From: Candidatus Thiodictyon syntrophicum
GTDB taxonomy: Bacteria; Pseudomonadota; Gammaproteobacteria; Chromatiales; Chromatiaceae
Length of the DNA stretch: 64,000 nucleotides
NCBI RefSeq assembly: GCF_002813775.1
Contig: NZ_CP020370.1
Location: 3,807,501 to 3,871,500, forward strand
Direction of reading: 5' to 3'
The notes below the pieces were generated by a model that saw only the letters and a program-made list of their open reading frames with translations, had not been told where the DNA came from and made no database searches. Shown here piece after piece: positions 55 to 26,356 of this stretch (position 1 is its first letter; the number at the start of each line of letters is the position of its first letter). Both the position numbers and the translations under genes were made by a program.

Positions 55-130
<76 letters not shown>

Positions 131-184: not shown

Positions 185-568
185 ATGATCGGCAAACGTG
201 ACCAACTCATCCAGCACATTGCGGCGAGCCCGTCGCCGGTGAGAACGACCGACGCCGCTCTTGCAGTTGGTTTGCCCCCCTCCCCCGAGACCTTTGCCGC
301 CTTGGACCTGTTGCTCGCCCTGTCACCGGAAGTGAGCGCATTCTCGGATGGCTGGGTGGCATCTGCGGACACCAGTGACCGGCGCATCCTCGGCGCACTG
401 CGGGCCTATGCTCAAGCCCACCCTGAAAGGCAGATTTTCCGCGTTGCCGCGGCACTCGGGCACCTGTCGGCGCAGGACCAGATGACCGAGCAACAGCTCC
501 GCGAATTGTTGTCCCGGACCAGTGAGTTCCAGCTCCTGGCGAACGCAATGATCAAACGAGGATCCTAG
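185..568 (+). CDS. Small protein, first gene of methylase/ATPase defence locus
   Basis: A 127-aa protein that I do not recognise. It is predicted to be mostly helical, with no signal peptide or membrane segment. The N-terminal half ([29 protein letters not shown]) has the rhythm of a winged-helix DNA-binding domain, which is an inference only. Its stop codon (TAG, 566-568) overlaps the GTG start of the methylase at 568, so the two are translationally coupled. This makes it the first gene of the locus, 17 nt after the T-run of the tRNA terminator. A regulator or accessory subunit would fit the position, but nothing in the sequence proves a function. Confidence 0.7.
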
Positions 569-756
569 TGGCAAAGAAGCTCAACGGATATGACCGCACC
601 GCGGCCCTGCAAGCGGCCAGGAGTCACCTCTCGACGGCGCTCGGCTATGTCGATATCGGACCGATCCGGATCACCGATCAAGACTGCATCGTCGCGATGG
701 CAAATGATAGACCGGTCATCCTGGTCTCAGGGTCCCGTCAAAGTCCGGGGGCTTGA
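568..756 (+). pseudogene. 5' fragment of the methylase gene, cut by an insertion sequence
   Basis: GTG start overlapping the preceding stop. Residues 1-53 (568-726) are the genuine N-terminus of the downstream methylase. From 728 the frame runs into the insertion sequence and stops at 756. Deleting 728-2793 (the element plus one copy of the 9-bp duplication) joins base 727 to 2794 exactly in frame with the methylase at 2967, restoring a protein of about 625 aa. The restored N-terminal 110 residues look like the HSDR_N nuclease-like fold (residues PVILV, a later QAYAQEL helix, then DYIWAT). The usual E-x-K catalytic strand is replaced by VW, so this domain is probably inactive. Confidence 0.85.
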
Positions 757-2784
757 CGTAGCGGCGGGGGCCTCGGGCGATGCGAAGCGCGCGGGTGACG
801 GTCGGGCGGTAGATCTGGCGAAGACGATCGCGGGGTTGGGCGAGGCGCGCGAAGGGGAAGTGCGCGGGCGCAGGCGAGCGCCAGCCTCCGCCGGAGCGGC
901 CGTGCGTCAGCGTCAGCGGCGTCGGGTGTCAGACGCCGATGGCGGCCAGGGCCCGGCGCGGTTGGTGAGCGAAGGCGCGCAGGGCGCTGGCGATATTGGT
1001 AAAGCCGTGCAGACGAGCCAAGGCGATGGCGAAGTTGCGCAGGCTGGCCATGATGGCCGGTCCGTGGCCGACGCGCACGCGCGAGCGATCCTCGTCGAAG
1101 GTGACGTCGCGGACATAATGGGAGCGGTTCTCGATGCCCCAGTGGCCGCGGTTGAGTTGCAGGAGTCGCGGCGGGTCGGCCAACTGCGGTGGCAGGCTGG
1201 TCACGGCGAACACCGTCTCGTCGCGTTGCTTGCCCGACGTGAGTTCGGTGACGGCGCGTTCGATGCGACAGACCTGGGCGACGTGGGGGAAGTTGACGTA
1301 GTCGTTGAGGGCCGTGGAGGCCATCAAGCGGCGCTGCTCCAGGCGCCCATGGCCCTTATCGAGGGTCGTGGTGCAGAGGGGGGAAATGCGCCTCGGTCAG
1401 GGCGCTGAGGTCGGCATAGAGGGTGGGCTGATTTTCTTTGACCGTGAAAAAATAGTGGGCCTGTTTCTCCTCGACCAGGAAGCGCGCGGTCTCGCGTTGG
1501 GTATGCAGCGCATCGGCGGTGACCACCCGTCCCGTGAGGTCCAAGGGTGCGAGCAGCGGTTTGAGCTCCGGGATCTCGTTGGTCTTGGCCGGGATCTCGC
1601 GCTGCGCCACGGTCACGCCCTGATCTTGGAGGAACGCGCTGAGCAGATGCACCTGGGTGCCGTCGGGGCGCACCGCCCCGCGCAGGGCCTTACCATCGAC
1701 GGCCACGGCATCGTCGGCAGCGACGAGGCCGAGCAGCCAGTCACTCAAGGTGGCATCAATGGCGGCAACGTCGCTGGCTTGCAGGACGCGGCGCAAGGTC
1801 GGCTCGGAGGGTGGCTCGAAGCGCTCGGTGCGGGGATTGTAGCGGGCGTGTAGACGCTTGAGTTGGGCCTGGGTCAGGCGCGCTGCCCACTCGGCGAGCG
1901 CGGTATAGCCGCGGTTGCCGGCGAGTACGGCGGCGAGGCCGATGCTCAACACCGTGGCCTGGGGATGGCGTTTACCGCGCGGACGGCGCCGATCGGGCAG
2001 CGCGCGCAGACGCTGCTGCAGGTCCTGCATCTGGGCCGTGGTCAGGGTGACGGATTGCATTGGCGTGCTCCAAGGGGCGGGTAGCACGGGGGCGCACAAC
2101 AGCGCCCGGGCGCGTGGGTGCAACGGATAGACGAGTGCCTGCTTGGGTTCGCCATGGGGGGTATAGCGGCCGTTGCAGCGCGCAAAGCCGCGCGTGGTGC
2201 CGACCACCTGCCAGTTGGCGGCGCGGTAACAGGCACCGGTAAAACGCGTTGGATCGACGAAGGTCTCGGCCAGCAACAGGCGGTGACCATGGACGCGCAG
2301 CCAATCGTCGGACAGGCGCCGCAGGTTCAGCGCCAGGATGCGCGAGGCCAGATTAGGGACGCGCCCGGTGGCGGGGAGGATCAAGAACCGGGCGTTGTTG
2401 GCCAGCAGATGCAGGCGTTGATAGTGCAGCACCCGCGGCCAACCGATCCAGGCATCGCGGGCCGCGCACTTGAGCGCCGCCGCCTGCCAGCCGAGCAGCG
2501 CCAGCCAGCACCCATCAAGCGTGGCAACGTAGCGTAAGGTCTTGCCGAATAACGAGCGTAGGCCCAGGTAATGATGCGCCTCGACCAGCGCATCCCACGC
2601 GTCCCGCTCCCCGGGCAGGATCAGGCGGACCTCCAGACGCCGGAGTAACTCCGACGCGGGGCGGCAGGACTGGCAAGGAATTTCGGCCATGCCGACTGTT
2701 GTAAGACATTTCGGGCCGAAAATCCAGTTCTGCGAACATCGGTCACAAGCTCAAGGGGCTACGGGTGAACTCGACGGAGCCCTG
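728..2784 (-). mobile_element. ISAs1-type insertion sequence with DruA (DUF4338) domain
   Basis: The 2057-bp element is bounded by imperfect inverted repeats, both starting CAGGG (728-745 and the complement of 2767-2784, 13 of 18 positions identical). It is flanked by a perfect 9-bp direct duplication, TCCTGGTCT, at 719-727 and 2785-2793. It contains one transposase gene on the minus strand, broken by a frameshift. Precise boundaries and a perfect target duplication indicate a recent simple insertion. Confidence 0.92.
929..2690 (-). pseudogene. DruA-ISAs1 fusion transposase, frameshifted
   Basis: Read from 2690 down, residues 1 to about 205 match DUF4338, the domain of Druantia protein DruA. 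From about residue 210 (MQSVTLTTAQM) it is an ISAs1-family DDE transposase with the first Asp in AVDGKALRG and the second in VTADALHTQ. The frame ends at 1356 with HHDPR-stop. The correct continuation (DKGHGRLEQRRL... GIENRSHYVRDV, which carries the catalytic Glu) lies in another frame ending at 929. The shift maps to the run TTTCCCCCC (complement of 1378-1386). A one-base indel is the simplest reading; programmed slippage on this run cannot be excluded. The DruA-transposase fusion is known in databases as ISAs1 family. Confidence 0.88.
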
Positions 2785-2966
2785 TCCTGGTCTGGGCACC
2801 AGAGGACGAGGGACCGATCAACCCGGCTGACCAGGCGTATGCACAAGAACTCGCGGCCTCGATCGATGTTGGGCCCGCCGACTACATCTGGGCGACCAGC
2901 ACCGGCATCCCTGGTGACGGGTATATTTTCTCGTGGCTGCCGGACAAGGAGTGCCAGGTCAGCGAG

Positions 2967-4511
2967 TTGCCCACGGCCGAGGCCGCCCCGGCGGGCGAGA
3001 AGGGCCGGCGGACACGTGCCGATGCGGCCGGTTTCAAGCATCTCCAGTCGGAGTTCGACCAACTCCATGAGCAGATCTACGCCGCCCGTGAGCCGATCGA
3101 CAGCTCGAACGATCTGACGGCCCAGCTCTGCAAGTGCATCTTCCTCAAGATGCACATGGAGCGGCATCCGGACTTTCGGGCAGAGGCGGATGCGCCGCCG
3201 CTGATCGACATCTTCCAGCCGCACTACGTCACGGCCCATGGAGAGAAGGCCGTCGACGAGATCAAGAAGGCCTTCGCCCAAGCGCGCAGCCTGCCCGAAT
3301 ACAACGTCGTCGATGACCGAGGCAACACGTTCGAGATCTTCGACCGGGACGATTACATCAAATTTCGCCGCCCCGAGACCTACGCCGCCATCGCCGGCTT
3401 CCTGAATCGCCACGAACTGACCCGGCCCGATGCCTCTGGGATCGAGGACGACATGGTGGGGCGCGCCTTCGACGTGATGTTGCGCGGGCGATTCGAGGGG
3501 AAAGGCGGGATGGGGGTGTACCTGACCCCTCAGCAGGTTCGCGACGCCATGGTCCACATGGTCTTCCACGACCTGCTCACCGAGGACCCCGGCCTGCTGA
3601 CGCGCGTCGACCCCAAGACCGGGCGTCCGGAATTGCGGATTTGCGACCCCTGCTGCGGGTCCGCCGGCTTTCTGATTACGAGCATGCGCGAGGTGCGCAA
3701 ACACGTCGACAAGCTCGTCGGCATGTCACTGGAACAACGGGCAAAGCTGCTGCAAGGTATCTTCCACCATGGGTTCGAGGGTGCCGACAACGCCCCCAAC
3801 ATGGTCCTCCTGGCGCGCATCAACATGGCACTCCACGGTGACGCGCGCCCGCGGGTCTTTCGCGTATCGAGCTCGCTCACCTCCGACATCTTCGAGGCGG
3901 AGAGCTTCGACCTCATTCTCACCAACCCCCCGTTCAAGAAGGGTGGCATTACGGACGAGGCGCAGCCGGAGGTGCTGAAGGCCTACCAGTCCGCCATCGA
4001 CCAACGTGGCCTGGTGATTGCGGACGGAAGCCTACTGGCGCTCGGTGCCAAGCCCGACGCCAAAGGGCGCTGGAAGCCGGTCAACAGTGTCGATCCCGCG
4101 GTACTCTTCATCGACCGCTGTCTCCAACTCCTTAAGCCCGGCGGCCGGCTCCTCATCGTCCTCCCCGATGGTATCCTCTGCAACAGCGGCGACCGCTATG
4201 TGCGTGAGTACCTCATGGGCACGAAGGACGAGGCCACCGGCCAGTTCATTGGCGGCAAGGCGGTGGTCAAGGCGGTCGTGAGCCTGCCCCCCGTCACCTT
4301 CCGGCTGTCTGGCGCCGGCGCCAAGACCAGCTTCCTCTATCTCCAGAAGAAGCGCCCCGGCGATGAACAAGGGCCAGTGTTCATGGCGGTGGCGGACGGC
4401 GTAGGCTTCGACGTGAAGCAGAACAAGGAGGTCGTCACCGGCGAAAACGACCTCGTGCGCATCGTCGAGGCCTACAAGGCCGGACCCCAAGCAGACCAGG
4501 CGGTCGGATGA
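2967..4511 (+). CDS. HsdM-like N6-adenine DNA methyltransferase (surviving 3' part of the split gene)
   Basis: Gamma-class adenine methylase of the type I restriction family. Motif I DPCCGSAGFL lies at about residue 226 of this reading frame and motif IV NPPF at about 319; an HsdM-type helical N-terminal part (LTAQLCKCIFLKMHMERHPDF) and the helicase-like MGVYLTPQQV region precede them. The open frame continues upstream to 2794 and, after removal of the insertion sequence, joins the 568 GTG start (625 aa in all). As it stands, translation could start at ATG 2967, leaving both catalytic motifs intact but removing 111 residues. The stop overlaps the next ATG (GGATGATGG). The HsdS-like protein at 15,393 is its likely specificity partner. 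Expression would have to come from within or beyond the insertion. Confidence 0.9.
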   Translation: MPTAEAAPAGEKGRRTRADAAGFKHLQSEFDQLHEQIYAAREPIDSSNDLTAQLCKCIFLKMHMERHPDFRAEADAPPLIDIFQPHYVTAHGEKAVDEIKKAFAQARSLPEYNVVDDRGNTFEIFDRDDYIKFRRPETYAAIAGFLNRHELTRPDASGIEDDMVGRAFDVMLRGRFEGKGGMGVYLTPQQVRDAMVHMVFHDLLTEDPGLLTRVDPKTGRPELRICDPCCGSAGFLITSMREVRKHVDKLVGMSLEQRAKLLQGIFHHGFEGADNAPNMVLLARINMALHGDARPRVFRVSSSLTSDIFEAESFDLILTNPPFKKGGITDEAQPEVLKAYQSAIDQRGLVIADGSLLALGAKPDAKGRWKPVNSVDPAVLFIDRCLQLLKPGGRLLIVLPDGILCNSGDRYVREYLMGTKDEATGQFIGGKAVVKAVVSLPPVTFRLSGAGAKTSFLYLQKKRPGDEQGPVFMAVADGVGFDVKQNKEVVTGENDLVRIVEAYKAGPQADQAVG

Positions 4512-6049
4512 TGGGCCCCACCACCGGCCTGGTTCCCCCGGTGGACCTGAACGCGCTCCAGGCCGAGCTGGTCGAACTCGCCCTCGGCGGCGTCGTTGAG
4601 CCGCGACCCGGTACGCAAAGCTGGCTCGCGGCCACCGGCATCACGCGAACGACCGCTGATGGTCGCCTGGTCGCTGACGATGATTGGCTGATCTGCTCAC
4701 TGCCCGCCCCATCGGACAAGGAACTGCTGGTCCGCTCCCTGCTGCGCGATCCGCTCTATCGGCTGCATCTGGATCTGCGCTTGGCGCAGATCGTCACGGC
4801 GGTCGGGGTGTCCGGCCGCTGGTCACGGCTGGAGGACCTTCTGTTCGGCGAACTGTCCCCCCTGGCCCCACGCCTGGCCGCCCTGGTCGAGCTCGCCAGA
4901 CCCGCAGACGGCGTGTGGGAACATGCAGATTGGGACGGCCTCGATGCACTCCAGCCTGACACCGCGGCGCAACTTGACGAGCGGTGCTGGGGGATCAGCG
5001 CGAGCGCGGAGGCGATGTTCCCGGTGCTGCGCGCGCGTTATCCCGCGTTTGCCTTGGTACCCGTGTTCCACGCCGCCGCCGATGACTTCGTTGCGTCCGT
5101 CGTTGCGGCTGCCGCGCTCGGAGAGTCCGTACAGGTCCCAGCCGAGCACCGGGCCGACCTAACTGCACTGGCCCGACGGGGGCTCCCTCTGTGGTACCGG
5201 GCGCTCGGGGACCAGACACTGGAGGTTACCCTGAGCGCGCCCTGTCGCGTGCGAGGTAAGCAGCCAGACCTTGCAAGCCGCCCCTCTACCCGAGGTGTCC
5301 CAGCCCATGCGCGGGCCGGGTCTGCGCTGCTTCCTCCCCCACCTCGCGGCCTGCGCGCGTCCTTCTGGGAGATCGCCGAGACCGCGACCTCTGGGTTGGC
5401 CTTCGTCGGCACCGCGCACCGGGAACTGTGGCCCGCCGACCAGGACGCCATACGGCGCGGCCTGCCCCGCGGCGAGGACCTTGCAGGTCTCGCCCGTCCA
5501 CGTCGCTGCGGGCATGGCGCCCAAGACCCCGCAGATGCGGCGCTGCGGTTGCTTTGCGATCATCCGCTGTTCGGTTTCTGGCTTCAGATCCTGCTCGTCG
5601 AGGCACTCGACCGCGAGCTCGGCGCGGAGACCCTGCTGTTGGCGCCGCCGACACCGCCGCTCGTCGATGACATTGAGGCCGCGACCCATCTGTATTACCG
5701 GCCGCGTGTCGAGTCGCAGCAGCAGGCCCCGCCCTTGCGGGATCTGGGGGCGCTGGACGACGCCATGACGCCGGTTGCCGTCGCGCTCGGGGTAAGTCCC
5801 GTCGGTGTGCTGGGACCCGCGGCCGGCCCCTGGTCGCTGAGCCTGGCACTGCTCGCGCACATCGGCGTCGCGCAGCATCGCCACGATCGTTGGACCCTCT
5901 CGGCTCACGCGCTCGATCGGCTCCACGGCGGCGGACTCATGACCGGGGTCATTCGCCGCGGCCGGGGGGTTCGCGAACACCTTCACGATCTGCTCGAGGC
6001 CCTCTGGCGCAAGCGTGCCGACGCCGATCAGGGGGCATCCGGTGTCTGA
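4508..6049 (+). CDS. Defence-locus protein of unknown function (513 aa)
   Basis: No family recognised. The protein is Leu/Ala/Arg-rich and soluble, with no signal peptide, no nucleotide-binding loop and no obvious catalytic motif. Two ATG codons in tandem at 4508 and 4511 overlap the methylase stop, and its own stop overlaps the GTG of the next gene, so it is made in step with its neighbours. Length and placement between methylase and ATPase suggest a structural or target-recognition subunit of the same complex. That is inference from context only. Confidence 0.8.
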   Translation: MMGPTTGLVPPVDLNALQAELVELALGGVVEPRPGTQSWLAATGITRTTADGRLVADDDWLICSLPAPSDKELLVRSLLRDPLYRLHLDLRLAQIVTAVGVSGRWSRLEDLLFGELSPLAPRLAALVELARPADGVWEHADWDGLDALQPDTAAQLDERCWGISASAEAMFPVLRARYPAFALVPVFHAAADDFVASVVAAAALGESVQVPAEHRADLTALARRGLPLWYRALGDQTLEVTLSAPCRVRGKQPDLASRPSTRGVPAHARAGSALLPPPPRGLRASFWEIAETATSGLAFVGTAHRELWPADQDAIRRGLPRGEDLAGLARPRRCGHGAQDPADAALRLLCDHPLFGFWLQILLVEALDRELGAETLLLAPPTPPLVDDIEAATHLYYRPRVESQQQAPPLRDLGALDDAMTPVAVALGVSPVGVLGPAAGPWSLSLALLAHIGVAQHRHDRWTLSAHALDRLHGGGLMTGVIRRGRGVREHLHDLLEALWRKRADADQGASGV

Positions 6050-7124
6050 GCCCCGATCCATCGCCCTGACCCGACTCGCCCTGTGGTGCGACCCCACCCG
6101 CATCCAGACGTGGCCGAAGTTTCTCGCCTCGCTCCCAGAAGACGCGCTCGCCCCGACGCCCACCGACCTGGGGCGAGCCTTCGTGACGACGCGCATGACC
6201 TCCACTGGACATGCGGCCGCATTCGACCTGGTTCGCAATCTGGCCGGCCTGGAGTGCAAGGCCGGGCGGCTGCAACTGCGCGGCCTGGGCCTGCTCCGGC
6301 GCTCACCCGCGGGCTACGCGGTGAGCGCCGACGGCCGGGCACTCGCCGCCGCCTACCGCGCAAACCCCGCGGGCCCCGAATGGCCGCGTCTGTTCGCCGA
6401 TGCGCTCCTGGGCCTTGAGCCGCGCACGCGGGCGCTCATCAAGCGCCTGTCCGAAGAAGGTGCGGTCCTCAAGTTCGAGCGCGACGCCTGGTTCGCCGGG
6501 AGCTACCGCCGGGCCCGCCTGGTGCGTACCGGCGAACCGGACATGTTTCCCCTCGACGCGGCCAGGGAGCGGCGGACGCTGCGTGAATCGCTCAACGACG
6601 ACGCCTGGTGGTGCCTGGGAGAATGGCGTTCGGACCCATGCCTCGAAGGTGCGACGCATTGCCGTTTCCGCGGCACGCGCAGTGAGGCTTTCTCGCTGCA
6701 CGGCATCGGCCCGGCGCTGCGCGCCGCCTGTGAGGTGCTGCTCGTCGGCGGGCTGCTGCACCGCAACGGCGGCGAGCTGCGCCTGGACAGGGCCGCGGCC
6801 ATCCGTCTGCTGCCCGGGCGTGCCGCCGATTTCGGCTGGCTCGCCGGTGAGAGCGAATCAGGCAACCTGATGATCACGCTGGCGCAAGTCCTGCCGGGGC
6901 TCTGCTCTGCGACGGGTCACGTGGTGGCCTCGGAGCTACGCAACCTACTGCGCGCCCGGGGTGTCGCCGATCCGGACCGCGCCATCGCCGCGGCGCAAAG
7001 CGAGGGGCGCCTGCTCGTCTACGCGGAGGACTATGGCCAGTCCCGCCACGGCGAGGGCCTGTTCGGAGACCCAAGAAAGCAGCTTGTGAAGCTGCATCTC
7101 GTCGGCATCGGCCCAGGGGCTTAA
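6042..7124 (+). CDS. Defence-locus protein with winged-helix-like segment (360 aa)
   Basis: The start chosen is GTG 6042 (MSEPRSIAL), which overlaps the previous stop; a longer frame exists from 6015. Around residues 70-105 the pattern LQLRGLGLLRRSPAGYAVSADGRAL resembles a winged-helix recognition helix and wing, so DNA binding is possible. The middle is Arg/Trp-rich and the C-terminus (about 280-360) is another helical domain. There is no membrane segment and no catalytic motif that I can name. It ends 3 nt before the ATPase ATG. Function unknown; probably a subunit of the same complex as its neighbours. Confidence 0.78.
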   Translation: MSEPRSIALTRLALWCDPTRIQTWPKFLASLPEDALAPTPTDLGRAFVTTRMTSTGHAAAFDLVRNLAGLECKAGRLQLRGLGLLRRSPAGYAVSADGRALAAAYRANPAGPEWPRLFADALLGLEPRTRALIKRLSEEGAVLKFERDAWFAGSYRRARLVRTGEPDMFPLDAARERRTLRESLNDDAWWCLGEWRSDPCLEGATHCRFRGTRSEAFSLHGIGPALRAACEVLLVGGLLHRNGGELRLDRAAAIRLLPGRAADFGWLAGESESGNLMITLAQVLPGLCSATGHVVASELRNLLRARGVADPDRAIAAAQSEGRLLVYAEDYGQSRHGEGLFGDPRKQLVKLHLVGIGPGA

Positions 7125-7127
7125 GGT

Positions 7128-10100
7128 ATGACCCACAGCAACCAGAACCCCTGGCAACGTGAAGGTGTCTCGATCCTTCCCGCCCGCCTGTCAGAGATTG
7201 CACCCATCGTGGGTCAGAAGCGGCTCTTCGAGAAGCTCTCCACCTTCAAGACCGAGATCGAGCGTCCCACTGGTCAGGACCTGAGCGGTTTCTTCATGAT
7301 CATCGGCGGCTGGGGCCTCGGCAAGAGCCGGGTCGGTCACGAGATCTGCCTGGAAGCCGTGTCGGACGAGGTGGAGTGGATCCTCGACGGCGCACCCCGG
7401 CGTGTCTTCGACCCCGGCTTCCCGCGGGGAACCTTGCCGCTCTTCCTTCGCTACATCCAGGTGACCGCGGGACCGCTCGGCGCCAACCTGGAGGCCGACA
7501 ACTGGATCCCCAGTGTCACCTGTGAGGCACTGGCCCAGCTCGCCGGCCTGCGGACCCATGACACGGCCAACAAGCTGGCGCGCAACCAGGACCAAATCCT
7601 CGAGCGCGTCCGCACGGCGCTGAAGCCCCGCGGCTGGGAACGGATCCTGCCGGACCTCGCGGCCGCGCTCGCCGCGTCCGATCCGCACACCACGGCGCGC
7701 GCGGCGCTGGGCGTCCTGCGCACGATCGGCATCGAGCGGCTCTTGCTCGTCATGGACGAGATCGAGGACATCACCGATGTGCAGCGCGACGGGCTGCCGT
7801 CGCACGAGCGCCAGGGCATCGACCAGGGCCTGCTGACCGTCATCCCCCGTGTCATCAAGGCCGAAGAGACACGGCAGGAATTCCCCGAGGTCAATTTTCT
7901 GCTGCTGTGTTCGCTCGCGGTCGGCGACCTGCTGCGCCAGATCCCGGCCAATGAGCGGCGCACCGGCTGGCACGAACTCACCAGCAACAGCTTCGGCGAC
8001 GTCAGCGCCTTCTTCGACTATCTGCGAGGGCACCGCCCGGGCGTTGCCGCGGCCATCGCCACCTACCCCCAGGGCCTCAAGGAGGCCGCCTTCTTCGCCG
8101 CGAACCGCAACTTCGGCTGGTTCAACGTCCTGATGCACCATGCGCACGAGAACCACCGGGGCGGCACCATCTCCACCCCCGACCTGCTGTGCAAGTTCGC
8201 GCAGAGCGCCACCCGGGGCGGCCAGGACTCGGTCTTCGACACGGCCGCGCTGGGCCCGACGCGCCTCGAGCGCGATGGCGATTACGACGCCATCGTGCGC
8301 GCCCTCTACTCACTGCTGCCGCTGGAGATCGGCACCCGGGACGGTCTCGACCAGGCCACCGCGGAGCGCTTCCTTGCGAAGGTGGATCACGGGCACAGTG
8401 GCCGCCCGCTCTTCACGCGGGTCCTGGAGATCACCCCGCCCGCGCAGCACCGCGTGATGGCCCACATGGTCGCCTCGGGCTTCCGCAATGCGCGCGGCGC
8501 CGAGCTCGTGCTCGTGGGCGAGGTGCAATTCGACCTCGCACTCGTACTCGCGGGCCTGGAAGCCTACTCTATCGGGCTGCCCGCGGAGCGCCGCGGCCAC
8601 TGGCTGATCTGCACGGATGAAACCGAGTTCACCCACCAGTTGGCGGGCCTGTCCCCCTACCCGGAGCAGGCCCAGCAGTTCGCCCCCTACCTGCACGGCC
8701 TGCTCCTCGACCCGGCCTACCGGGTCAAGGACGCACAGGGCGCGGACCTGATGCTCGTCGCCCCGGCCTTTTCGTTTCTGCGCGATTTCAACCGGCTCAA
8801 CAAGACCCGGCTCGATGACCAGGGTTACCTGCGCGACGCGGCCAGGAACACCCGGCTCGAGGAGTCCTTCCGCGCGGCCGACCAGGACCCCGCCCGGCGT
8901 TCCCGGTGTCTGCTGCAAGGGCTCGCCAATTGCTGGGAGGGCGACTCCGCGGCGCCGCCCCTGACCTGGCTCACCAGCGACCTGGGCCTGCCCGCGGCCC
9001 GTTGGTCGCCCGCGGCCGGGCCCTTGGACCTGGCGGCCTCGGGTCAGGCCACAGTGCTCTACGCGACCGGTGCGACGGACGCGACGCTGGAGAGCGCACT
9101 CGCGCACCTGGCCAGCCGGCGCAACCAGGCGGGGGCCGAGCCGATCGTACTCGTCCTCCAGGAACAGCCGGAGCGTGCGGGCGCACTTGCAGCGCACCTC
9201 CCCCGCTTGGTCCCCAGCCTGGCGCCGCTGGTCGTCGTGCACAACCTGGTGCGCCGAAGCGCCGAGGATCTGGTGCGGCTCGGCCTGCTGGGCGAGGCCT
9301 TCGAGCCCACCGACCTGCGTACCAGCCACTTCCACGCGGTCATCGGTCGGGCCCGGGAGCACTTCAAGCAGGTCCTCGACCAGTGGGTCATCGAGGGCCC
9401 GGAGCACCAGGGCCTGCTCCTGCGTCCGCTCTTTTACGGCACCAAGGCGAGCGACGCCGACCTCCGGCTGTTCGCCCGCGGCTACACGGCCCTGCGCGCC
9501 GGCCGCAGCTTCCACGAAATCACCCAGCCCGGCTGCGATGTGTTCGCCACCGACGCGGAGCGCGACCGCTTCAAGAAGGTGCTGGGCAAACACGCCGAGC
9601 CTGGACCCAGGTTCGCCGGCGCGCCGCACGAACCGCTGGTGCAGGCGGTCGGCGGCGACTACCAGGTGCGCGTCGCCCGGCCCTTCATCAGCTTCATGCA
9701 GCGTTGCGGCGACGTGCCCAAGACCCAGGCCGACCTGGAGCGGTGGTTCCTCTTCGACCGGCGCGGCGAGAAACGTGAGGAACTCGAACAGCCCCGCGAG
9801 GTGGTACGCACCTGGGTCCTGTTCCTGGAGGCGATCGGCCTGCTGCAGGGAGAGACCAACAGCTTCGCCCGGGTATCGCGGCACGAGCTCGACAGCCGGC
9901 TGCGCGGCGCCGACGCCTGGCTCGGCGGCCCCTTCAAGACGGCCGCCGAGCGCATCGGGCGCATCGACCAGGACGCGGGCGCCCAACTCACCGGCGTCGC
10001 GGCCAAGAGCGCCCAGCACAAGCTCAAGGACGCCGGCAAGAAGCTCGCCGCGCTCGACCTGGACTACCTGCGCCTGCCTTGGGACGAGCTGAACCGCGCG

Positions 10101-11303
10101 ACCGGCGAGGCCCCCCCGGTCTGGGAGCAGAGGCTGTGCACCACGCTCGCTACCGTGCGGGGCGTGCGCGATGACATCCACTGGGTCTACGATCCCGCGC
10201 AGTTGGTGACCTTCCGCTATAACGCCGACGCCCTGCACCACTTCGAGGCCCACCAGGGCGCACCGGACTTCCCGCTCTGGCGCCGCCTGGAGGTGTTGCG
10301 CGGCTTCTACGACCAGCTCGACGAGGAGCGCCGGACCCTCCTGCACCGGATCAGCACGGTGCGCGCCGAGGTCGAGGCCCGCGTGCCCCTGGTCACCGAG
10401 GGACCGGACGCGGGCGAGCAGTCGTTTCCGACCCAGCCCCTGACACTCGCGCTCGCCCTCTTCGAGCAGGAGCTGGACTTCGCCCCGGACCACCCGAACA
10501 AGACCGTCGTGGCGCTCGGCACCACGCTCGGGATCAGCACCATCGGCTATCAGTTGGTGAGCGGCAAGCTGATCGAGGTGCTCGACCGCCTCGTCGCCAT
10601 CCGCGGCGATCTGCACGACGGCGGTAAGCTGGTGGACAGCTTCAACCAGGCGCTGAATCGCTTCCTCGCGCTGCGTACCGACGCGCAGGAGGCCGCCCGC
10701 CGGCTCGGCGAGCTGACCGACTTCCTCGCCGACGCCCCGACCGACATCACCGAAGCGCTCGGGCTCGCGGGCCTGCGGGCCGCCGTCGCGGCCATCCTTG
10801 GGGTCTTCTTCCAGGGCGACATCCGCCAGAAGACCGACGAGCGCGAGGCCGCCCGGCACCGGGTCCCGACCCTGCTCCCCAAGCTGATCGAGGACCTGGA
10901 GGGGGAGGCCGACCGGCCGCGCCAGGTCAGGGAGTCCATCGACAGCGCTTGGCAGAGTCTGCTGCCCTCGCTGGTCGCCCGCTACCAGGGGCTCTATGGG
11001 GGGCGGCTCAACGCCCTCTACCGGATCCGCCGGGCCCAGGGCGGACCCGTGCCCAACTGGCCCGACCGACTGGCGGCGACCTGGGGCCAGACCGTCGCGG
11101 ACCTCGAGGCGGTCGTGCAGGCCATCACCGCCGAGGGCGAGGCCTGCTTCGCCGGCGAGGCAGACACCACCTTCGAGGTCTTCGTCGGCCTGTGCGAGCT
11201 GGACCTGGCGCGGCAGCCCATCGACTGGCAGGCGCCCGAGTACGAGCGCCACGCCCGGGTCCTGATGAAGAAGCGCCTGCTGCGCCTGGAACTCCTGTCA
11301 TGA
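7128..11303 (+). CDS. Large P-loop ATPase (1391 aa), BrxC/PglY-like in size and layout
   Basis: The Walker A motif GGWGLGKS lies at about residues 59-66, preceded by hydrophobic FFMII. The Walker B-like strand LLLVMDEIED lies at about 205. After the N-terminal AAA-type module come more than 1000 residues of helical sequence rich in charged coiled stretches (for example AKSAQHKLKDAGKKLAALD). Very large single-Walker ATPases next to an adenine methylase are typical of BREX (BrxC) and Pgl (PglY), but no PglZ phosphatase is present here. The stop overlaps the next ATG (ATGA at 11,300). It probably powers assembly, translocation or target sensing for the locus. Exact family unassigned. Confidence 0.87.
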   Translation: MTHSNQNPWQREGVSILPARLSEIAPIVGQKRLFEKLSTFKTEIERPTGQDLSGFFMIIGGWGLGKSRVGHEICLEAVSDEVEWILDGAPRRVFDPGFPRGTLPLFLRYIQVTAGPLGANLEADNWIPSVTCEALAQLAGLRTHDTANKLARNQDQILERVRTALKPRGWERILPDLAAALAASDPHTTARAALGVLRTIGIERLLLVMDEIEDITDVQRDGLPSHERQGIDQGLLTVIPRVIKAEETRQEFPEVNFLLLCSLAVGDLLRQIPANERRTGWHELTSNSFGDVSAFFDYLRGHRPGVAAAIATYPQGLKEAAFFAANRNFGWFNVLMHHAHENHRGGTISTPDLLCKFAQSATRGGQDSVFDTAALGPTRLERDGDYDAIVRALYSLLPLEIGTRDGLDQATAERFLAKVDHGHSGRPLFTRVLEITPPAQHRVMAHMVASGFRNARGAELVLVGEVQFDLALVLAGLEAYSIGLPAERRGHWLICTDETEFTHQLAGLSPYPEQAQQFAPYLHGLLLDPAYRVKDAQGADLMLVAPAFSFLRDFNRLNKTRLDDQGYLRDAARNTRLEESFRAADQDPARRSRCLLQGLANCWEGDSAAPPLTWLTSDLGLPAARWSPAAGPLDLAASGQATVLYATGATDATLESALAHLASRRNQAGAEPIVLVLQEQPERAGALAAHLPRLVPSLAPLVVVHNLVRRSAEDLVRLGLLGEAFEPTDLRTSHFHAVIGRAREHFKQVLDQWVIEGPEHQGLLLRPLFYGTKASDADLRLFARGYTALRAGRSFHEITQPGCDVFATDAERDRFKKVLGKHAEPGPRFAGAPHEPLVQAVGGDYQVRVARPFISFMQRCGDVPKTQADLERWFLFDRRGEKREELEQPREVVRTWVLFLEAIGLLQGETNSFARVSRHELDSRLRGADAWLGGPFKTAAERIGRIDQDAGAQLTGVAAKSAQHKLKDAGKKLAALDLDYLRLPWDELNRATGEAPPVWEQRLCTTLATVRGVRDDIHWVYDPAQLVTFRYNADALHHFEAHQGAPDFPLWRRLEVLRGFYDQLDEERRTLLHRISTVRAEVEARVPLVTEGPDAGEQSFPTQPLTLALALFEQELDFAPDHPNKTVVALGTTLGISTIGYQLVSGKLIEVLDRLVAIRGDLHDGGKLVDSFNQALNRFLALRTDAQEAARRLGELTDFLADAPTDITEALGLAGLRAAVAAILGVFFQGDIRQKTDEREAARHRVPTLLPKLIEDLEGEADRPRQVRESIDSAWQSLLPSLVARYQGLYGGRLNALYRIRRAQGGPVPNWPDRLAATWGQTVADLEAVVQAITAEGEACFAGEADTTFEVFVGLCELDLARQPIDWQAPEYERHARVLMKKRLLRLELLS

Positions 11304-12148
11304 GGCCCCCCTGTGTCGGGCTCGCGGAGCAACGGACCTGGCGCGACCTGCGCCGGCTCGGTCAGGACCCCAGCCGGACCCTGCGCTGGCTGGACGCCGG
11401 GGAGGTGGCCACCGCCCCCGAACCGCTCGTCGCCTGCGGGCTCTGGGCCGCGCGCACGCCCGAGGCCGCTTTGGTGCTGCGCCGCCGTGCCGAGGCGGGC
11501 CTGGTGACGCTTCTGGTGGCGCGCTTCGAGCCGGTGGATCTCGGTCCCGTCATCGGTGCGCCGGTCAGCGTCCGCCTCTGCCCCGGCGAGTCGGACGGGC
11601 TCGTCTGGGACGACGGCCGCCGCTATGCCGTGCCCGGCGTCACCGTGATCGAGACCGCACTCCCGCAGGGGCACTGGGCACGCTCGGCGGCCGGGACCAG
11701 CGTCCTGGCCTACCGTCCCCACACCCAGGCCGGACTCATCTGTCTGTGCACCGCCACCGTCGCGGGCCCCGCACTCGGCGCCGACCCGGCCGAGCAACAG
11801 GCGCTGTTCGACCGTCTGCTGGACGAACTGGCCCGGCGGGCGCCCGAGCGGCCCCCGGCCGACCCGATCGCGCCCTCACCGGCACTCTGCGCGAGCGTCT
11901 GCGAGTATCTTGAGCGCCACGGCGCCGAGGGTGCGCTGGTCCTGCTCGCCGCGCTGAACGCGCCGGACGGCCGGGCGGATGCCGCGGGCCTCGAGTCCAT
12001 CGGCGCCACGCTGGCCGCGGACCGGCTCGCCGAACTGGTCGCCGCCCAGCCGGCCGCGACGGCGCAGGCGATCGAACAGGCCCTGAATGCCGCCGGCTGG
12101 GGCGCGCACCTGCGCGCCCTGGTGCGCCGCCGAATGGGGGGGCCGTAA
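11300..12148 (+). CDS. Defence-locus protein of unknown function (282 aa)
   Basis: The start ATG 11,300 overlaps the ATPase stop by 4 nt, the usual sign of translational coupling. The N-terminus (RTWRDLRRLGQDPSRTLRWLDAGEV) is helical. The middle is beta-rich (LLVARFEPVDLGPVIGAPVSVRL), and the C-terminus is Ala-rich helices ending RRRMGGP. No known domain or motif. It is the last gene before the repeat/IS interruption and probably the last of the first operon segment. Confidence 0.75.
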   Translation: MRPPCVGLAEQRTWRDLRRLGQDPSRTLRWLDAGEVATAPEPLVACGLWAARTPEAALVLRRRAEAGLVTLLVARFEPVDLGPVIGAPVSVRLCPGESDGLVWDDGRRYAVPGVTVIETALPQGHWARSAAGTSVLAYRPHTQAGLICLCTATVAGPALGADPAEQQALFDRLLDELARRAPERPPADPIAPSPALCASVCEYLERHGAEGALVLLAALNAPDGRADAAGLESIGATLAADRLAELVAAQPAATAQAIEQALNAAGWGAHLRALVRRRMGGP

Positions 12149-12170
12149 GTGCTCAGTCCACCCACCCCTG

Positions 12171-12380
12171 CGCGGGACGGGGTATTCACCCCGTCCCGAA
12201 CGTTTGACCAGCGCGCCTGGCCGGCACCAACCGGCCGACACTGGAAAACGTTCCGGACGGGGCGAATGCCCCGTCCGGCCTTGCGCGGGACGGGGTATTC
12301 ACCCCGTCCCGAACGTTTGACCAGCGCGCCTGGCCGGCACCAACCGGCCGACACTGGAAAACATTCCGGACGGGGCGAAT
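12171..12380 (+). repeat. 113-bp tandem repeat with three hairpins per unit
   Basis: Unit 1 is 12,171-12,283 and unit 2 starts at 12,284. Unit 2 is cut at 12,380 by the IS1182-type element and resumes at 14,147-14,158. Each unit holds a palindrome GGGACGGGG-TATTCA-CCCCGTCCC, a GGCCGG/CCGGCC hairpin, and a palindrome GGACGGGGC-GAAT-GCCCCGTCC. The two copies differ at very few positions. It lies directly after the 282-aa gene and could act as a transcription terminator or REP-like element. Confidence 0.85.
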
Positions 12381-14142
12381 GAGATTGTGAAAGTATTCAT
12401 GGTGTGTCCGCCAGGGGGCGTGCCACCGCGTACCTGGCGGCGCCTGGCGCCGCCCGGTTTCGTCGCGGGCGAGCGGCGCGGACGCGAGCGACTGGCCGTC
12501 AAAATCCGTCTCCGAGGCTGCTATTTGATAGAAAACATAAGCCTATCGATGCGCTCGCCATTGCTGCCTAGGCGGGCAGCAGGCGCCTGGACAAACGCTG
12601 GGCGCAGTAATCCCGAAACGCCTGCACACCGAGAATGTGGATCACCCGCGTGAGATTGTAGCCGAGCACCATCAGGCTCATCTCACCCCAGACTTTCTCA
12701 AAGCCGCGCACCAGGAAGTGGTCCCAGCCGAACCAGCGCTTGAGCGTACCAAAGGGGTGTTCGACCAAACCGGCGCGTTGACGCATGCGCGCGGGTCCCT
12801 GGTCGGCCATGCGCTGGCGCAGGGCCTCCACGACCGGCGCATGCTCGGAGCGCTCGATCTGGCGCCGGCCGCTCGCGGGCAGGCAGGAGGCCTTGAGCGG
12901 ACAGTCTTGGCACGCGCCGGGCGGGCGGCTGTAACGGGTGTAGAGGGTGCCGGTGCCGGCGCGACGGTGCGGCTCGCCGTACCGGTGCAGTTCTTGGTTG
13001 CCGGGGCAGCGATAGACATCGGTGTCCGGCAGGTACTGGAAACTCGCCCCGCTCAAGCGCCCTTCCGCGGTCAGGCGCTTCTCGTAATCGGGAACCGGGA
13101 CGTAGACGGTGATGTTGGCCTGCGCACACGCGGCCAACTGCGCCTCGTTGAAATAGCCGGCATCCGCCGCGGCGGTCAGTTTCGGGACCGCCAACACCGC
13201 TTTGGCCGCGAGGGCTTGCGGGGCCAACTGCTGGGTGTCGTTGCCGGCGTTGGTCACCTCGTAATGGACGATCAGCCGGTGCTTGCCATCGACGGAGTTC
13301 TGGACGTTGTAGCCGACCAGCTGCTGGCCGCCCTTGCGCAAGGCGCGGGCATCGGGGTCGGTACGCGAGATCTGGGTGTCCCCGCTGTCCGCCAACTGCT
13401 TGAGCAGGGCAGCGTGCTGCGCTTGGCGCGCCTGGAGCGTCACGATCTTGGCGGCCAACTCCGGGGTCTTGCTCAGGTCCTCAGGCAACCCCCGTTCTTG
13501 GGCATCCTGGGTCTCCAGGTCTTGATGGTAGGCCGCGATGTCGCACTCGATCTGCTTGAGTCGCTTCTCCAGTGTGGTCTTGGTGATGACGCTGGCGTCG
13601 CTGGCACTGGCGTTGAAGAAGGCGCCGTCGATGCCGATCTCCTCCCCGCCGAGCAGGTCCAGGTCCTTGCACAGGAGGATGAAGTCCTTGCACACCGCCC
13701 GCAGCGCCGGGCCGTTGAACTGGCGGAAGGCGGCGATCGTGCGGTAGCCCGGGGTGAGGCCCTCCAGCAACCACATGAACTCCAGATTGCGGCGGCACTC
13801 GCGCGCCAGGCGCCGCGAACTGTGCACCCGATCCAGGTAGCCGGCGATGTAGAGCTTGAGCAAGGCCGCCGGGGCGAACGCCGGTTGCCCGCAGCGCCGC
13901 GCCCCGCCCGCGTTCACGAACCCGAGCACCGCCAGGTCCAAGGTGTCCACGAAGGCGTCGATCGCGCGCACCGGATTGTCCGTGCCCACAAAGTCTTCGA
14001 TGCGCCGCGGCAACCGTGCCTCGTACCCGCGTGCCGTGCCCTGCTTGTAGCGTCTGCCGATCATCCCCCTGACCCCTTGGTTCCGACTTGGCTGACAGTC
14101 TACGCCAGGCACCGGGCACGATCCGAATACTTGCCCAATCTC
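12381..14142 (-). mobile_element. IS1182-type insertion sequence
   Basis: The 1762-bp element has 18-bp terminal inverted repeats: GAGATTGTGAAAGTATTC at 12,381-12,398 and its counterpart at 14,125-14,142, 16 of 18 identical. It is flanked by a 4-bp GAAT duplication (12,377-12,380 and 14,143-14,146). GAAT is the loop at the centre of the GGACGGGGC/GCCCCGTCC palindrome, so the element targeted a hairpin apex. It separates the first six defence genes from the NurA and HsdS genes. Confidence 0.88.
12568..14064 (-). CDS. IS1182 family transposase
   Basis: A 498-aa DDE transposase that looks intact. The start chosen is ATG 14,064 (MIGRRYKQG), because a longer frame would extend past the right end of the element. 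The N-terminal DUF772-type region holds NPVRAIDAFVD and PALLKLYIAGYL. The catalytic residues are visible in GIDGAFFNAS (first Asp), AADAGYFNE (second Asp) and VEHPFGTLKRWFG (Glu). A Cys-rich CQDCPLKASC segment lies near residue 410, as in other members. The element could still be active. Confidence 0.93.
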   Translation of the reverse strand: MIGRRYKQGTARGYEARLPRRIEDFVGTDNPVRAIDAFVDTLDLAVLGFVNAGGARRCGQPAFAPAALLKLYIAGYLDRVHSSRRLARECRRNLEFMWLLEGLTPGYRTIAAFRQFNGPALRAVCKDFILLCKDLDLLGGEEIGIDGAFFNASASDASVITKTTLEKRLKQIECDIAAYHQDLETQDAQERGLPEDLSKTPELAAKIVTLQARQAQHAALLKQLADSGDTQISRTDPDARALRKGGQQLVGYNVQNSVDGKHRLIVHYEVTNAGNDTQQLAPQALAAKAVLAVPKLTAAADAGYFNEAQLAACAQANITVYVPVPDYEKRLTAEGRLSGASFQYLPDTDVYRCPGNQELHRYGEPHRRAGTGTLYTRYSRPPGACQDCPLKASCLPASGRRQIERSEHAPVVEALRQRMADQGPARMRQRAGLVEHPFGTLKRWFGWDHFLVRGFEKVWGEMSLMVLGYNLTRVIHILGVQAFRDYCAQRLSRRLLPA

Positions 14143-14172
14143 GAATGCCCCGTCCGGCTGCCGAGACAACCT

Positions 14173-14210
<38 letters not shown>

Positions 14211-14223
14211 GTGCTTTGAGGTC

Positions 14224-15390
14224 ATGAACCACCACAACCCCCTGGCCCAGGAGATCACCGCCCAGATCCAACTCGGCCTGCCCGGCACGGTCGGCAAGCT
14301 GGCGCGGCAACTGCGCTCCATCGACCGCATCGCCCCGCGGCTCAAGGCCGGCGGCCTGGTGCGGCGCCTCACGGTCGACCGCGAGCGGCCCCGCCGGGCG
14401 GTCGGCGTCGCCGTCGCCCACCGCAAGATCGGTGCCTTCGGCGGTCTGCTCTACGGCGCCGCGGCCCTGGGTCATGAACTCACCGCCGCCGGCGGCGACA
14501 TCGCCCACAGCCGCCAGTTGAGCCGCATGGACGTGGGCGACATGAGCCTGCTGGAGTCAGACCGGCGCCTGAAATGGAAATGCTACGCCCTGGTCTATGA
14601 CCTGCTGGACGAACTCTTCGCTGCCGACACCCTGCCGGAACTGGTCATCCTCGACGTACCGCTGGTGATGGGCAAGGCCGTCTACGCCCAGGTGCTCGAA
14701 GACCCCGCGACCGACGCCCGGCTCAAGCGCGACATCGGCGCGCTCAAGGAGCGCCTCGACGGCTTCTGGGACCGCTGGATCGAACGCTGCTACCCCTTCG
14801 ACGCCGCCGGTCCCAAGGTCGTGAGCCTGCACCGCGGGCGCTTCGGCAGCCTGCTCAAGCTGGTGGAGCGGCGCGGCACCGAGGTCTCGCCGGACCCCAT
14901 CGACCCGGAGGTGGAGGACCTGGTCCGCACCCAGTGGGTCGAGGTCCTCTCGGTCGGCATCGACCGCGTACTGCGCGGCATCCTGGTCCCCGAGCACCGC
15001 ACCGCCGCCTTCGAGCAGGACCAGGACCGGCTCGACAAGGACGCCTTCCCCCGCGCCATCGTCGACCGGGGGCGGCTCGGCTTCCACTACCTGACCGGGC
15101 TGCGCGGCCAGCCGGTCTATTGCGAGACCCTGGGCTCCGCCGCCGCCTGGGTCGACCGCAGCGGGTCCGCGGCCCTGGACGCACTGGCCGGGGACCTGCT
15201 GGCACTCACCTACTTCGACGCCCGTCAGGCGGTGCCGCTGCCGCTGTGGTATGCCCAGTCGGGGGTCGAGATCGTCAAGCGCAAGGAGAAGGGGCGCGGG
15301 ATACTGGAGTTCTACAAGGCGGAGGCGCTGCGGGCGATGCGGGAGGAGCAGGTGGATTTGGCTTGGTTAGCGGGGTGGGAGGAGGAGTAA
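14224..15390 (+). CDS. NurA-domain nuclease-like protein
   Basis: A 388-aa protein with the layout of NurA-family 5'-3' nucleases that work with HerA. An early Asp occurs in LTVDRERPRRAVGVAVAH, the acidic strand DTLPELVILDVPLVM lies at about residue 140, and a C-terminal segment contains FHYLTGLRGQPVYCE. The start chosen is ATG 14,224 after GAGGTC; an open frame continues upstream into the insertion sequence and is not meaningful. It lies 2 nt before the HsdS-like gene. No HerA gene is adjacent, but one lies 4.9 kb downstream at 20,270. Assignment to NurA is by overall pattern and moderately confident. Confidence 0.7.
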   Translation: MNHHNPLAQEITAQIQLGLPGTVGKLARQLRSIDRIAPRLKAGGLVRRLTVDRERPRRAVGVAVAHRKIGAFGGLLYGAAALGHELTAAGGDIAHSRQLSRMDVGDMSLLESDRRLKWKCYALVYDLLDELFAADTLPELVILDVPLVMGKAVYAQVLEDPATDARLKRDIGALKERLDGFWDRWIERCYPFDAAGPKVVSLHRGRFGSLLKLVERRGTEVSPDPIDPEVEDLVRTQWVEVLSVGIDRVLRGILVPEHRTAAFEQDQDRLDKDAFPRAIVDRGRLGFHYLTGLRGQPVYCETLGSAAAWVDRSGSAALDALAGDLLALTYFDARQAVPLPLWYAQSGVEIVKRKEKGRGILEFYKAEALRAMREEQVDLAWLAGWEEE

Positions 15391-15392
15391 CC

Positions 15393-16844
15393 ATGGAGAC
15401 CGCTTGGATCAAGGCTCGGGCGCTGGAGCAACGCATCGACGCCACTTTCTACGGCACTCAGTTCGTCGAGAATCAGCGACGGATCGAAGCAGCAGCACCA
15501 TGTGTGCGCTTGGACGACCTTCGGCAAGCGGAACGGCCTATTACGAACGGCATCCGCGGACCGGAGTTTGCTGATACCGACTATCGAATGCTGCGTCTCC
15601 AGGATATAGACCAGTTGTGGTTTGACTCGCATACAGCGTTGCGTGTTTCAGCCGCTCAGTTTCACAATAATCGACGTGCCCATTGTCGTCCAGGCGACAT
15701 CCTGCTGGCTATCGGCGGCTATATTGGCGTTGTTGGCAAGATTGTAGATTCGGCGCCGCAGACGATGGGCCAACATTCAGCGCTGCTTGCCTTTGATGCT
15801 ACGAAGCTGGACGGCGACTACGCGCTCGCATTCTTCTCTTCCAAGTCAGGGACCATGCTTTGCCAGCGGCACGTTTCTGGAGGAGTGCAAGCGGGGATCA
15901 ACCTGGAGGATGTGCGAGAAATCAGGATACCCGTCCCTTGTTCAACTATCCAAAGTGCAATCGGCAACAAGGTCCGCAAGGCGGAGCGGCTGCGGGCCTT
16001 GGCAGCAAGCTCACTTGCGACCGCCAAAACGTTAGTCGGGACCTTCATCGCAAGTCTCAGCCTGACGACCACCAACCATGCTACGAGCCTAACCTCGTGG
16101 GTTCGGCCGAAGTGGCTGGAACACAGAATTGATCCCTCATACTACGACGGCGAAGTCATGAACCTAACGCAAGCCATTGAGAACGCACCGAGACATGCGA
16201 CGCTTGGGAAGTTGGCTCCCGACATGTGCAACGGTCCGCACGGCGGCATCGAGTATGTAACGGCAGCCGAGGGCATTCGGTATCTGCGCGCCAAGAACCT
16301 GGAAGATTTGTCGGTCAACGACAACGATCCGGTCTACATCCCCCGCTCGACCCACGAACTGAACCTTCGGGCAGAGGTTGTCCCGGGCGACCTGGTAATC
16401 ACGATTACCGGCGCGAACATCGGCGCAGTGGGCGTCATTCCGCAGAGCATCCCCAGGGCCAATATTATCCAGTCACTGGGCAAGCTGCGCATTGTGACGG
16501 ATGACGACCCGGCCTACATCGCGGCCTTCCTCGGCAGTTCCTACGGAGCAATGCTGATCTCCCGAGAGGCCGTCAACACGGCACGCGAGGGGATCAACTT
16601 CGAATACCTGGCCCGCGTTCCGATTCCCCTGCCGTCGAAAGACCTGCAGACCACGGTCGGCAATGCGGTAAGGGGCAGCACCGCCTCAAGAGCCGAGGCG
16701 CGTTTGTTGCTTTCTGAAGCCCGCGCCGCCGTCGAATCCCTCATCAATGGCACCCTGGACGAACCGGCCCTACTCGCCGAGGGCGAGGCCATCGAGCAGT
16801 GGCTCGCCGCCAACCCGAGCCCCCAGGACGCGGAGCCGGTCTGA
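15393..16844 (+). CDS. Type I restriction-modification specificity subunit (HsdS-like)
   Basis: A 483-aa protein with two target-recognition domains in tandem. Each begins with the same kind of motif (LEQRIDATFYG at about residue 10, LEHRIDPSYYDG at about 240). Each contains a RPGDILLAIGG/VPGDLVITITG-type strand and ends with a helical spacer (NKVRKAERLRALAASS; NAVRGSTASRAEARLL). These helices form the coiled coil that holds the methylase. A strong GGAGGAG ribosome site precedes ATG 15,393. With the HsdM-like protein it should define the methylated sequence. No HsdR restriction subunit is present, so restriction must be carried out by other proteins of the locus. Confidence 0.9.
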   Translation: METAWIKARALEQRIDATFYGTQFVENQRRIEAAAPCVRLDDLRQAERPITNGIRGPEFADTDYRMLRLQDIDQLWFDSHTALRVSAAQFHNNRRAHCRPGDILLAIGGYIGVVGKIVDSAPQTMGQHSALLAFDATKLDGDYALAFFSSKSGTMLCQRHVSGGVQAGINLEDVREIRIPVPCSTIQSAIGNKVRKAERLRALAASSLATAKTLVGTFIASLSLTTTNHATSLTSWVRPKWLEHRIDPSYYDGEVMNLTQAIENAPRHATLGKLAPDMCNGPHGGIEYVTAAEGIRYLRAKNLEDLSVNDNDPVYIPRSTHELNLRAEVVPGDLVITITGANIGAVGVIPQSIPRANIIQSLGKLRIVTDDDPAYIAAFLGSSYGAMLISREAVNTAREGINFEYLARVPIPLPSKDLQTTVGNAVRGSTASRAEARLLLSEARAAVESLINGTLDEPALLAEGEAIEQWLAANPSPQDAEPV

Positions 16845-19148: not shown

Positions 19149-19165
19149 CAACGAGGCATGTAGAC

Positions 19166-26355: not shown

Positions 26356-26356
26356 G

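Follow-up and report, generated by a model that had tools for sequence, protein, structure and literature searches.

A conserved, methylation-linked gene cassette with a HerA motor in Candidatus Thiodictyon syntrophicum

What could take the place of HsdR in a gene cluster that carries the methylase and the specificity subunit of a type I restriction-modification system? This question is raised by a locus in Candidatus Thiodictyon syntrophicum, located in a stretch of 64,000 nucleotides (G000:C1:3807501-3871500, here called the window) of a genome of 7,738,984 bases in 3 contigs. 'Thiodictyon syntrophicum' Cad16T belongs to the purple sulfur bacteria of the family Chromatiaceae (PMC5944118; this and the other papers cited by PMC number were available in part). 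A preliminary inspection of the letters alone, here called the sequence-only reading, had proposed that positions 185..16844 hold a multi-gene, methylation-linked defence locus with no HsdR and no PglZ, possibly an undescribed system. The gene set is conserved beyond chance and continues to position 24170. The cassette is real, conserved and linked to methylation, the sources searched do not describe it, and we regard it as a variant of modification-guided restriction. For the reading that it restricts DNA as a mobile cassette guided by modification, we put the probability at roughly 0.6, and its function is probably phage defence.

The core of the cassette comprises nine genes, among them those for a methylase, a specificity subunit, a DNA-pumping motor, two proteins with predicted nuclease folds, a giant ATPase and a kinase. 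In the window these lie on the plus strand and are hsdM (in two parts, 568..727 and 2785..4511), D (6042..7124, 360 amino acids [aa]), E (7128..11303, a P-loop ATPase of 1391 aa that serves as the cassette marker), F (11300..12148, 282 aa), G (14224..15390, 388 aa), hsdS (15393..16844), herA (20270..21979, 569 aa), M (21976..22593, 205 aa) and a Ser/Thr protein kinase gene with tetratricopeptide repeats (22590..24170, 526 aa). Genes A (185..568, 127 aa) and C (4508..6049, 513 aa), also on the plus strand, lack relatives among the loci that were examined. The reading frames listed in the sequence-only reading, including the HsdM-like one at 2967-4511, are all real. Its statement that all are joined by overlapping stop and start codons holds for several junctions: A and the original hsdM start, which falls at 568 on the TAGTG (566-570) that ends A, hsdM and C (ATGA), C and D, and E and F (ATGA). 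It does not hold where an insertion sequence (IS) splits hsdM or where D and E lie 3 base pairs (bp) apart. The end set at 16844 was too early because herA, M and the kinase gene belong to the same cassette; herA overlaps M (GTGA) and M overlaps the kinase gene (ATGA), and G and hsdS are separated by 2 bp.

Database matches for hsdM, hsdS and the kinase are to be read as being among the matches listed by PADLOC, Pfam and NCBIfam. The first two are type I components by PADLOC (PDLC03024, 1.2e-147, and PDLC03155, 5.5e-41), and these are what the cassette shares with type I systems. In contrast to those systems, no HsdR was among the matches listed for the window cassette or for the complete cassette of locus L073, and translocation would be by HerA. 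Likewise, no PglZ or BrxL was among the matches listed for the window or L073 cassette proteins scanned. The proposal of a methylation-linked, multi-gene system without HsdR or PglZ among the matches listed was therefore borne out, and as a whole the cassette fits no catalogued defence system. No description of the gene set was found in the literature searched, a search made without the original paper on the methylation-associated defence system (MADS), and the available parts of PMC12839542 and PMC10853773 do not describe it.

Relatives were sought with E. Among 194 genomes of the same family, 16 had a match at an expectation value (E-value) <= 1 and 8, the own genome included, at an E-value <= 2e-31; the remaining eight (E-value 0.0067 or worse) were excluded from the relatives. 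The own genome was the only one with E among 369 genomes of the class, and again among 398 of the phylum searched with an E profile. A scan of genome contigs added one relative, a Verrucomicrobiia metagenome-assembled genome (L026), and scans of viral contigs added three (L073, L074 and L075). The window E had no match among plasmids, and the E of L075 had none among plasmids and phages. Genome counts are lower bounds because candidates were partly scored in some genomes (2 of 14 in the own genome in the phylum profile search; 5 of 11 in G472 in the search with PDLC03023), and distant relatives may have been missed. Since few relatives of E emerged from what was searched, the cassette appears to be rare and patchy.

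Outside the window, eleven loci carry E (L026-L033 and L073-L075). The window, L026 and L027 form group 1 and the other loci form group 2, and the E proteins of both groups belong to one family (hhalign 1.6e-66). Identity to the window ranges from 21 to 78% for E, G, HerA and M. Two of the viral contigs, L073 and L075, have the order hsdM-hsdS-D'-E-F'-G-herA-M-kinase, packed head to tail, where D' and F' denote the group 2 proteins in the positions of D and F. The order in L026 is E-F-G-hsdS-herA as in the window, with 57% identity for G and 78% for HerA, and G and herA are adjacent in group 2 and in L027. Within the fetched stretches, hsdS occurs in nine of the eleven loci, the exceptions being L028 and L029, whose contigs measure 5.4 and 9.9 kilobases. 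The others are found in seven (hsdM: L027 with L062, L031, L032, L033 with L070, L073, L074 and L075), eight (herA) and seven (kinase). Wherever hsdM, hsdS, herA or the kinase gene is missing, the contig ends before its expected place.

An hsdM of the group 2 type (PADLOC PDLC03023, E-value <= 1e-100) occurs in 4 of the 194 same-family genomes, and all four are among the six with a group 2 E. The hypergeometric estimate for this 4/4 co-occurrence is about 3e-7, assuming that both searches used the same 194 genomes. The assembly of G521 is fragmented and places hsdM and E on separate contigs; in G401 and G472, the contig with E starts within the hsd genes or downstream of them. Because homologues of E do adjoin a methylase, and the set recurs in other bacteria, the view that the locus is a chance cluster fails. 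Inspected by eye, one viral-contig copy is followed by one more gene and then by lysis-like and tail-like genes on the other strand, and another is followed by a tyrosine-integrase-like gene.

Pairwise identities between loci were also compared among the proteins. All pairs among E, G, HerA, M, the kinase and hsdM correlate at r 0.91-0.99 (15-36 locus pairs), including r 0.92-0.94 for hsdM against the other cassette proteins, and hsdS correlates with each other protein at only 0.33-0.37. For these values L028 and L029 were left out, the hsdM of L027 is partial and that of the window is a remnant. Because hsdS sits in the same organisms, it allows an internal check on the effect of common descent. 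Judging from the sequences, such a pattern is what one would expect of a restriction-type system whose target recognition is swapped. The ratio of nonsynonymous to synonymous substitution rates for E (0.12-0.16 in three pairs) indicates purifying selection, which was also computed for pairs of D', G and HerA. Among the HsdM proteins, a pattern for NPPF matched 7 of 7 and a pattern for methylase motif I matched 1 of 7.

The proteins most relevant to the missing HsdR are HerA, G and M. HerA matches DUF87 (1.7e-34), carries a TGSGKS motif, is 61-78% identical to its relatives and is nearest to archaeal HerA; a pattern for FLVYEEGH matched six of nine HerA proteins. The structure model of G supports a NurA fold. 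The protein is intact, being full length in comparison with the G of L026, and its catalytic residues are partly missing. In the alignment of G proteins, D106 and D319 are conserved in 9/9, D144 in 8/9 and E120 in 7/9. The first catalytic Asp seems to be lacking, and G may not be the cutting subunit. In the NurA of T. kodakarensis, Asp49 is required (PMC12977600); matching that residue to a position in G is our own reading. Comparison of G with NurA by hhalign gave no sequence similarity, and the G profile had no match in PDB. M probably has a PD-(D/E)XK fold according to its model, and carries the motif R-x-D..E-F-E-R..K. A search of PDB with the M profile gave two rows, which were taken as chance. 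The window kinase has VAVK, HGDLKLDN and DFG motifs, and an HxD pattern matched seven of eight kinases. The sequence-only reading had held that the ATPase and a nuclease replace HsdR. In our reading the likely replacement is HerA together with NurA-fold G and M.

Parts of this arrangement have precedents. A path for DNA from HerA to NurA has been described for the archaeal complex (PMC12977600), and the cassette shares with that pair, which occurs in archaea and some bacteria, a HerA nearest to the archaeal protein and a NurA-fold partner. It differs in that G is missed by the NurA model, seems to be without the motif I Asp and sits in an operon with a methylase, a kinase and an ATPase. Defence by HerA and a nuclease is known from DUF4297-HerA (PMC11291478), in which, as in Sir2-HerA, HerA works with an effector enzyme against phages; unlike the cassette, both are two-component systems without a methylase, as far as the available parts of the sources describe them. 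In contrast to TdpAB (PDB 8wfd, 8wet), the cassette has an N6-adenine methylase with a specificity subunit, an extra ATPase, a kinase and a nuclease. TdpAB goes with phosphorothioation.

The remaining proteins match no family, as the sequence-only reading had anticipated. A has no match in PADLOC or Pfam; C, D, E and F have none in PADLOC, Pfam (E-value <= 0.1) or NCBIfam (E-value <= 1); and C, D, E, F, G, M and their group 2 equivalents lack significant matches in the family libraries. These libraries thus see only a type I methylase and specificity subunit, HerA and a kinase among family-less proteins. Weak rows for group 2 E (LmuB 0.06, ZorA 0.036) were taken as chance coiled-coil matches, and the E profile found only coiled-coil-type matches in PDB. 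The window E has a Walker A motif (GGWGLGKS) and a Walker B motif (LLLVMDE). A Walker A pattern matched six of ten E proteins, with L026 lacking the N-terminus and WGVGKS in L074 and WGRGKS in L075 missed by the pattern, and a Walker B pattern matched seven of ten. D has a homologue in L027 and F has one in L026. In group 2, D' is a protein of 380-440 aa without detectable similarity to D, and F' is one of 274-291 aa without detectable similarity to F.

From these families and folds a working scheme can be proposed. HsdM and HsdS would place N6-methyladenine on the host's own sites. The P-loop ATPase E, together with the fast-changing adaptors D and F, might recognize incoming DNA that lacks the modification, or license it. 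That DNA would then be threaded and destroyed by a HerA hexamer with NurA-fold G as its cap, two folds that are supported. M would be the second or the main cutting subunit, with G cutting where it is still active, and the kinase might switch the complex on or off. If this reading is true, the cassette would join BREX (bacteriophage exclusion), DISARM (defence island system associated with restriction-modification) and MADS as another large immune system that marks self DNA, and an archaeal-type HerA-NurA motor would be tied to self recognition by adenine methylation. We offer a narrower version only tentatively. It holds that an exchangeable HsdMS mark licenses the giant ATPase to load HerA, that G has become a channel for DNA without catalytic activity, its erosion being strongest in the window lineage, that the separate PD-(D/E)XK subunit cuts and that the kinase controls the whole.

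Several observations weigh against a restriction cassette of this kind. The model of G has a mean predicted local distance difference test (pLDDT) score of 49, and the NurA family model (PF09376) misses the protein, which has no Pfam match at an E-value <= 0.1 and is unlisted in 18 genomes at an E-value <= 10. In our reading of the alignment the motif I Asp of G is absent; E120 is Cys in the window and in L026, and D144 is Ser in L026. For M, the best Foldseek E-value is 0.037, the mean pLDDT is 59 and residues 1-82 fall below 50. D and F of group 1 are unrelated by hhalign profile comparison to their positional equivalents in group 2. Recognition domains are variable by nature, and this could account for part of the decoupling of hsdS. 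Methylation, cleavage and phage resistance are all predictions from the genes. Finally, hsdM is interrupted in the window and carries an in-frame TAG in G470, and thus these copies may be in decay, or the cassette may not need its methylase.

The interruption in the window is an IS of 2,057 bp (728-2784, minus strand, with transposase frames recognized by eye). It follows the 5' part of hsdM and is flanked by a 9-bp duplication, TCCTGGTCT, at 719-727, within that 5' part, and at 2785-2793. When the IS is removed in silico, the hsdM frame is continuous over 625 codons. The insertion looks recent because the element recurs in the genome in eight other full-length copies, each with 100% identity. 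The remnant (2967-4511, 514 aa) keeps the N6-adenine methylase motifs DPCCGSA and NPPF and is without the N-terminal region of its relatives. In G470 (L031 / L100), the hsdM has one in-frame TAG, and E, G, HerA, M and the kinase are open. The IS probably disables or alters self-marking in this strain, and hence the locus here is likely to be inactive as a restriction system, or rebalanced. If the reading as a restriction cassette is true, this would be a natural experiment on a restriction machine surviving methylase loss.

The same interruption bears on the rival that survives best, a suicide (abortive) system in which interference with the methylase or the DNA turns the kinase and the nuclease against the host. 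DUF4297-HerA defends by abortive infection (PMC11291478), and the kinase could phosphorylate host proteins. However, this strain is viable although its hsdM is interrupted and its genes for E, G, HerA, M and the kinase remain open. If loss of methylation simply triggered killing, this would hardly be expected, and we consider an abortive system unlikely.

It is more improbable that the locus is BREX-like, with E as a BrxC-type protein, D and F as BrxA/BrxB-type proteins, a PglW-like kinase and a defence that blocks phage replication with no cutting. The overall plan is the same, namely a methylase, a giant ATPase with an N-terminal AAA+ domain, small and fast-evolving partners and, in type 2, a kinase (PMC12839542). 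Comparison of E with BrxC by hhalign gave weak, non-significant segments, two of them co-linear, and the L073 kinase matches PglW at 3.1e-16, ranked below many other kinase models. On the other hand, E is not detectably BrxC: it has no match at an E-value <= 1 in NCBIfam, the BrxC model included, reaches a probability of <= 2.1% by hhalign against 9-10 BrxC sequences and is absent from the BrxC matches in its own genome, where 5 of 10 candidates were scored. The cassette further differs in having no PglZ or BrxL match listed and in having HerA and the NurA fold. A relationship of E to BrxC at the level of the fold is possible. Elsewhere in the source genome (C1, C2), three matches to BrxC exceed the family cut-off, and one additional site has two weak matches.

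Only a slight probability attaches to the view that the cassette is a divergent MADS, the same methylation-kinase-HerA machine with parts replaced. Both have an HsdM-like methylase, an HsdS-like subunit, a protein kinase domain and a HerA-family ATPase domain in one locus. The best NCBIfam matches of hsdM and hsdS are MAD2 (3.4e-42; 144.6 bits against a cut-off of 720, for the 514-aa remnant) and MAD5 (9.2e-36; 123.6 bits against 400), far below the curated cut-offs. The best PADLOC match of the kinase is mad6 (7.6e-48), and HerA matches mad8 at 1.1e-29, whereas generic HerA models reach 6.5e-57.

The comparison was extended to a same-family MADS locus (L059 with L076) that matches NCBIfam MAD2-MAD8, six of them over the cut-off and MAD5 at 367.8 bits against 400. 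The NCBIfam models for this system (genes mad1-8) are NF047733, NF047734 and NF047738-NF047742; "mad1" here is a 655-aa gene between MAD2 and MAD3, labelled from its position only. From L059/L076 and the related L054-L057 and L060, eight MADS families were built, and hhalign was used to align eleven window families with them. Matches were obtained for hsdM with MAD2 (8.6e-34), hsdS with MAD5 (1.3e-23), the kinase with MAD6 (1.7e-24) and HerA with MAD8 (5.8e-10), the last two over the kinase domain and the HerA domain only. The MAD6 frames of these MADS loci have 1,286-1,422 aa and the MAD8 frames 1,664-1,932 aa, whereas the cassette has a kinase of about 490-530 aa with tetratricopeptide repeats and a separate HerA of 560-569 aa. 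These profiles found no counterpart of MAD3, MAD4 or MAD7 among the window families, C, D, E, F, G and M had no MADS counterpart either, and no mad3, mad4 or mad7 was among the PADLOC matches listed for the window proteins scanned. Because hhalign gave nothing else of note, the cassette shares four domains with MADS, not the whole system, and adds D, E, F, G and M. A distant relationship to MADS, as the sequence-only reading had suggested, thus holds for four homologous domains and not for the rest, and by NCBIfam and hhalign the proteins do not match MADS or BREX components one by one in order. The extra AAA_21 ATPase of L027 does match MAD3 in part (hhalign 93.9%, 50 columns).

The least probable explanation, a HerA-NurA locus that serves DNA repair or is associated with replication and contains a methylase only by chance, can draw on HerA and NurA being DNA end-resection enzymes in archaea (PMC12977600), but hsdM diverges in step with the cassette (r 0.92-0.94) and co-occurs with it (4/4), the distribution is sparse and the neighbours are phage-like and integrase-like.

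Related cassettes vary in their additional genes. Fic-like genes, recognized by eye, lie between hsdS and D' in some copies, with pairs at L030:5041-6664 and L029:1221-3126 in cassettes of the same genus. L027 has an AAA_21 ATPase, a 281-aa protein and, within the cassette at L027:5514-7820, a 768-aa Mrr_N-EVE-DUF7669 protein, possibly a modified-base reader added to the system. Between hsdS and D' of L074 there is a protease-like frame of 277 aa (L074:7922-8755; TAAHVIE by eye), and a second hsdS-like gene lies upstream (2584-3933). Matches to hsdS also occur upstream of hsdM at L032:742-2118 and L062:8522-9871.

In the window, a 533-aa frame that appears by eye to be a transposase (12568..14169, minus strand) lies between F and G. 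Between hsdS and herA, a 263-aa protein with a GmrSD N-terminal domain (18191..18982) and an Xre antitoxin/RES toxin pair (19142..20235), both on the plus strand, were not found in the related loci examined. A repeat of about 110 bases, rich in palindromes and present in two near-identical copies (~12170-12390, by eye), lies downstream of F. Directly upstream of G is a hexamer microsatellite, (ACGACA)n, at 14178-14210, whose copy number could vary.

A gene for transfer RNA-Ala (cgc; 55..130, plus strand) stands 54 bp upstream of the cassette and is a possible island boundary; against this role, the 16-mers of 55-200 have no second copy within the window, where one 14-mer recurs at 60837 on the minus strand. 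Downstream of the kinase gene, TagF/ImpM-like and PP2C-phosphatase-like frames (25612-27100, by eye) have no counterpart behind the kinase in L071 or L072. Farther on, by eye, a Fic-like frame (28418-29461) is followed by what seems to be a disrupted hsdM of type I (29544-30479 plus another frame), and this region (28418-31252) looks like a second, decayed defence remnant.

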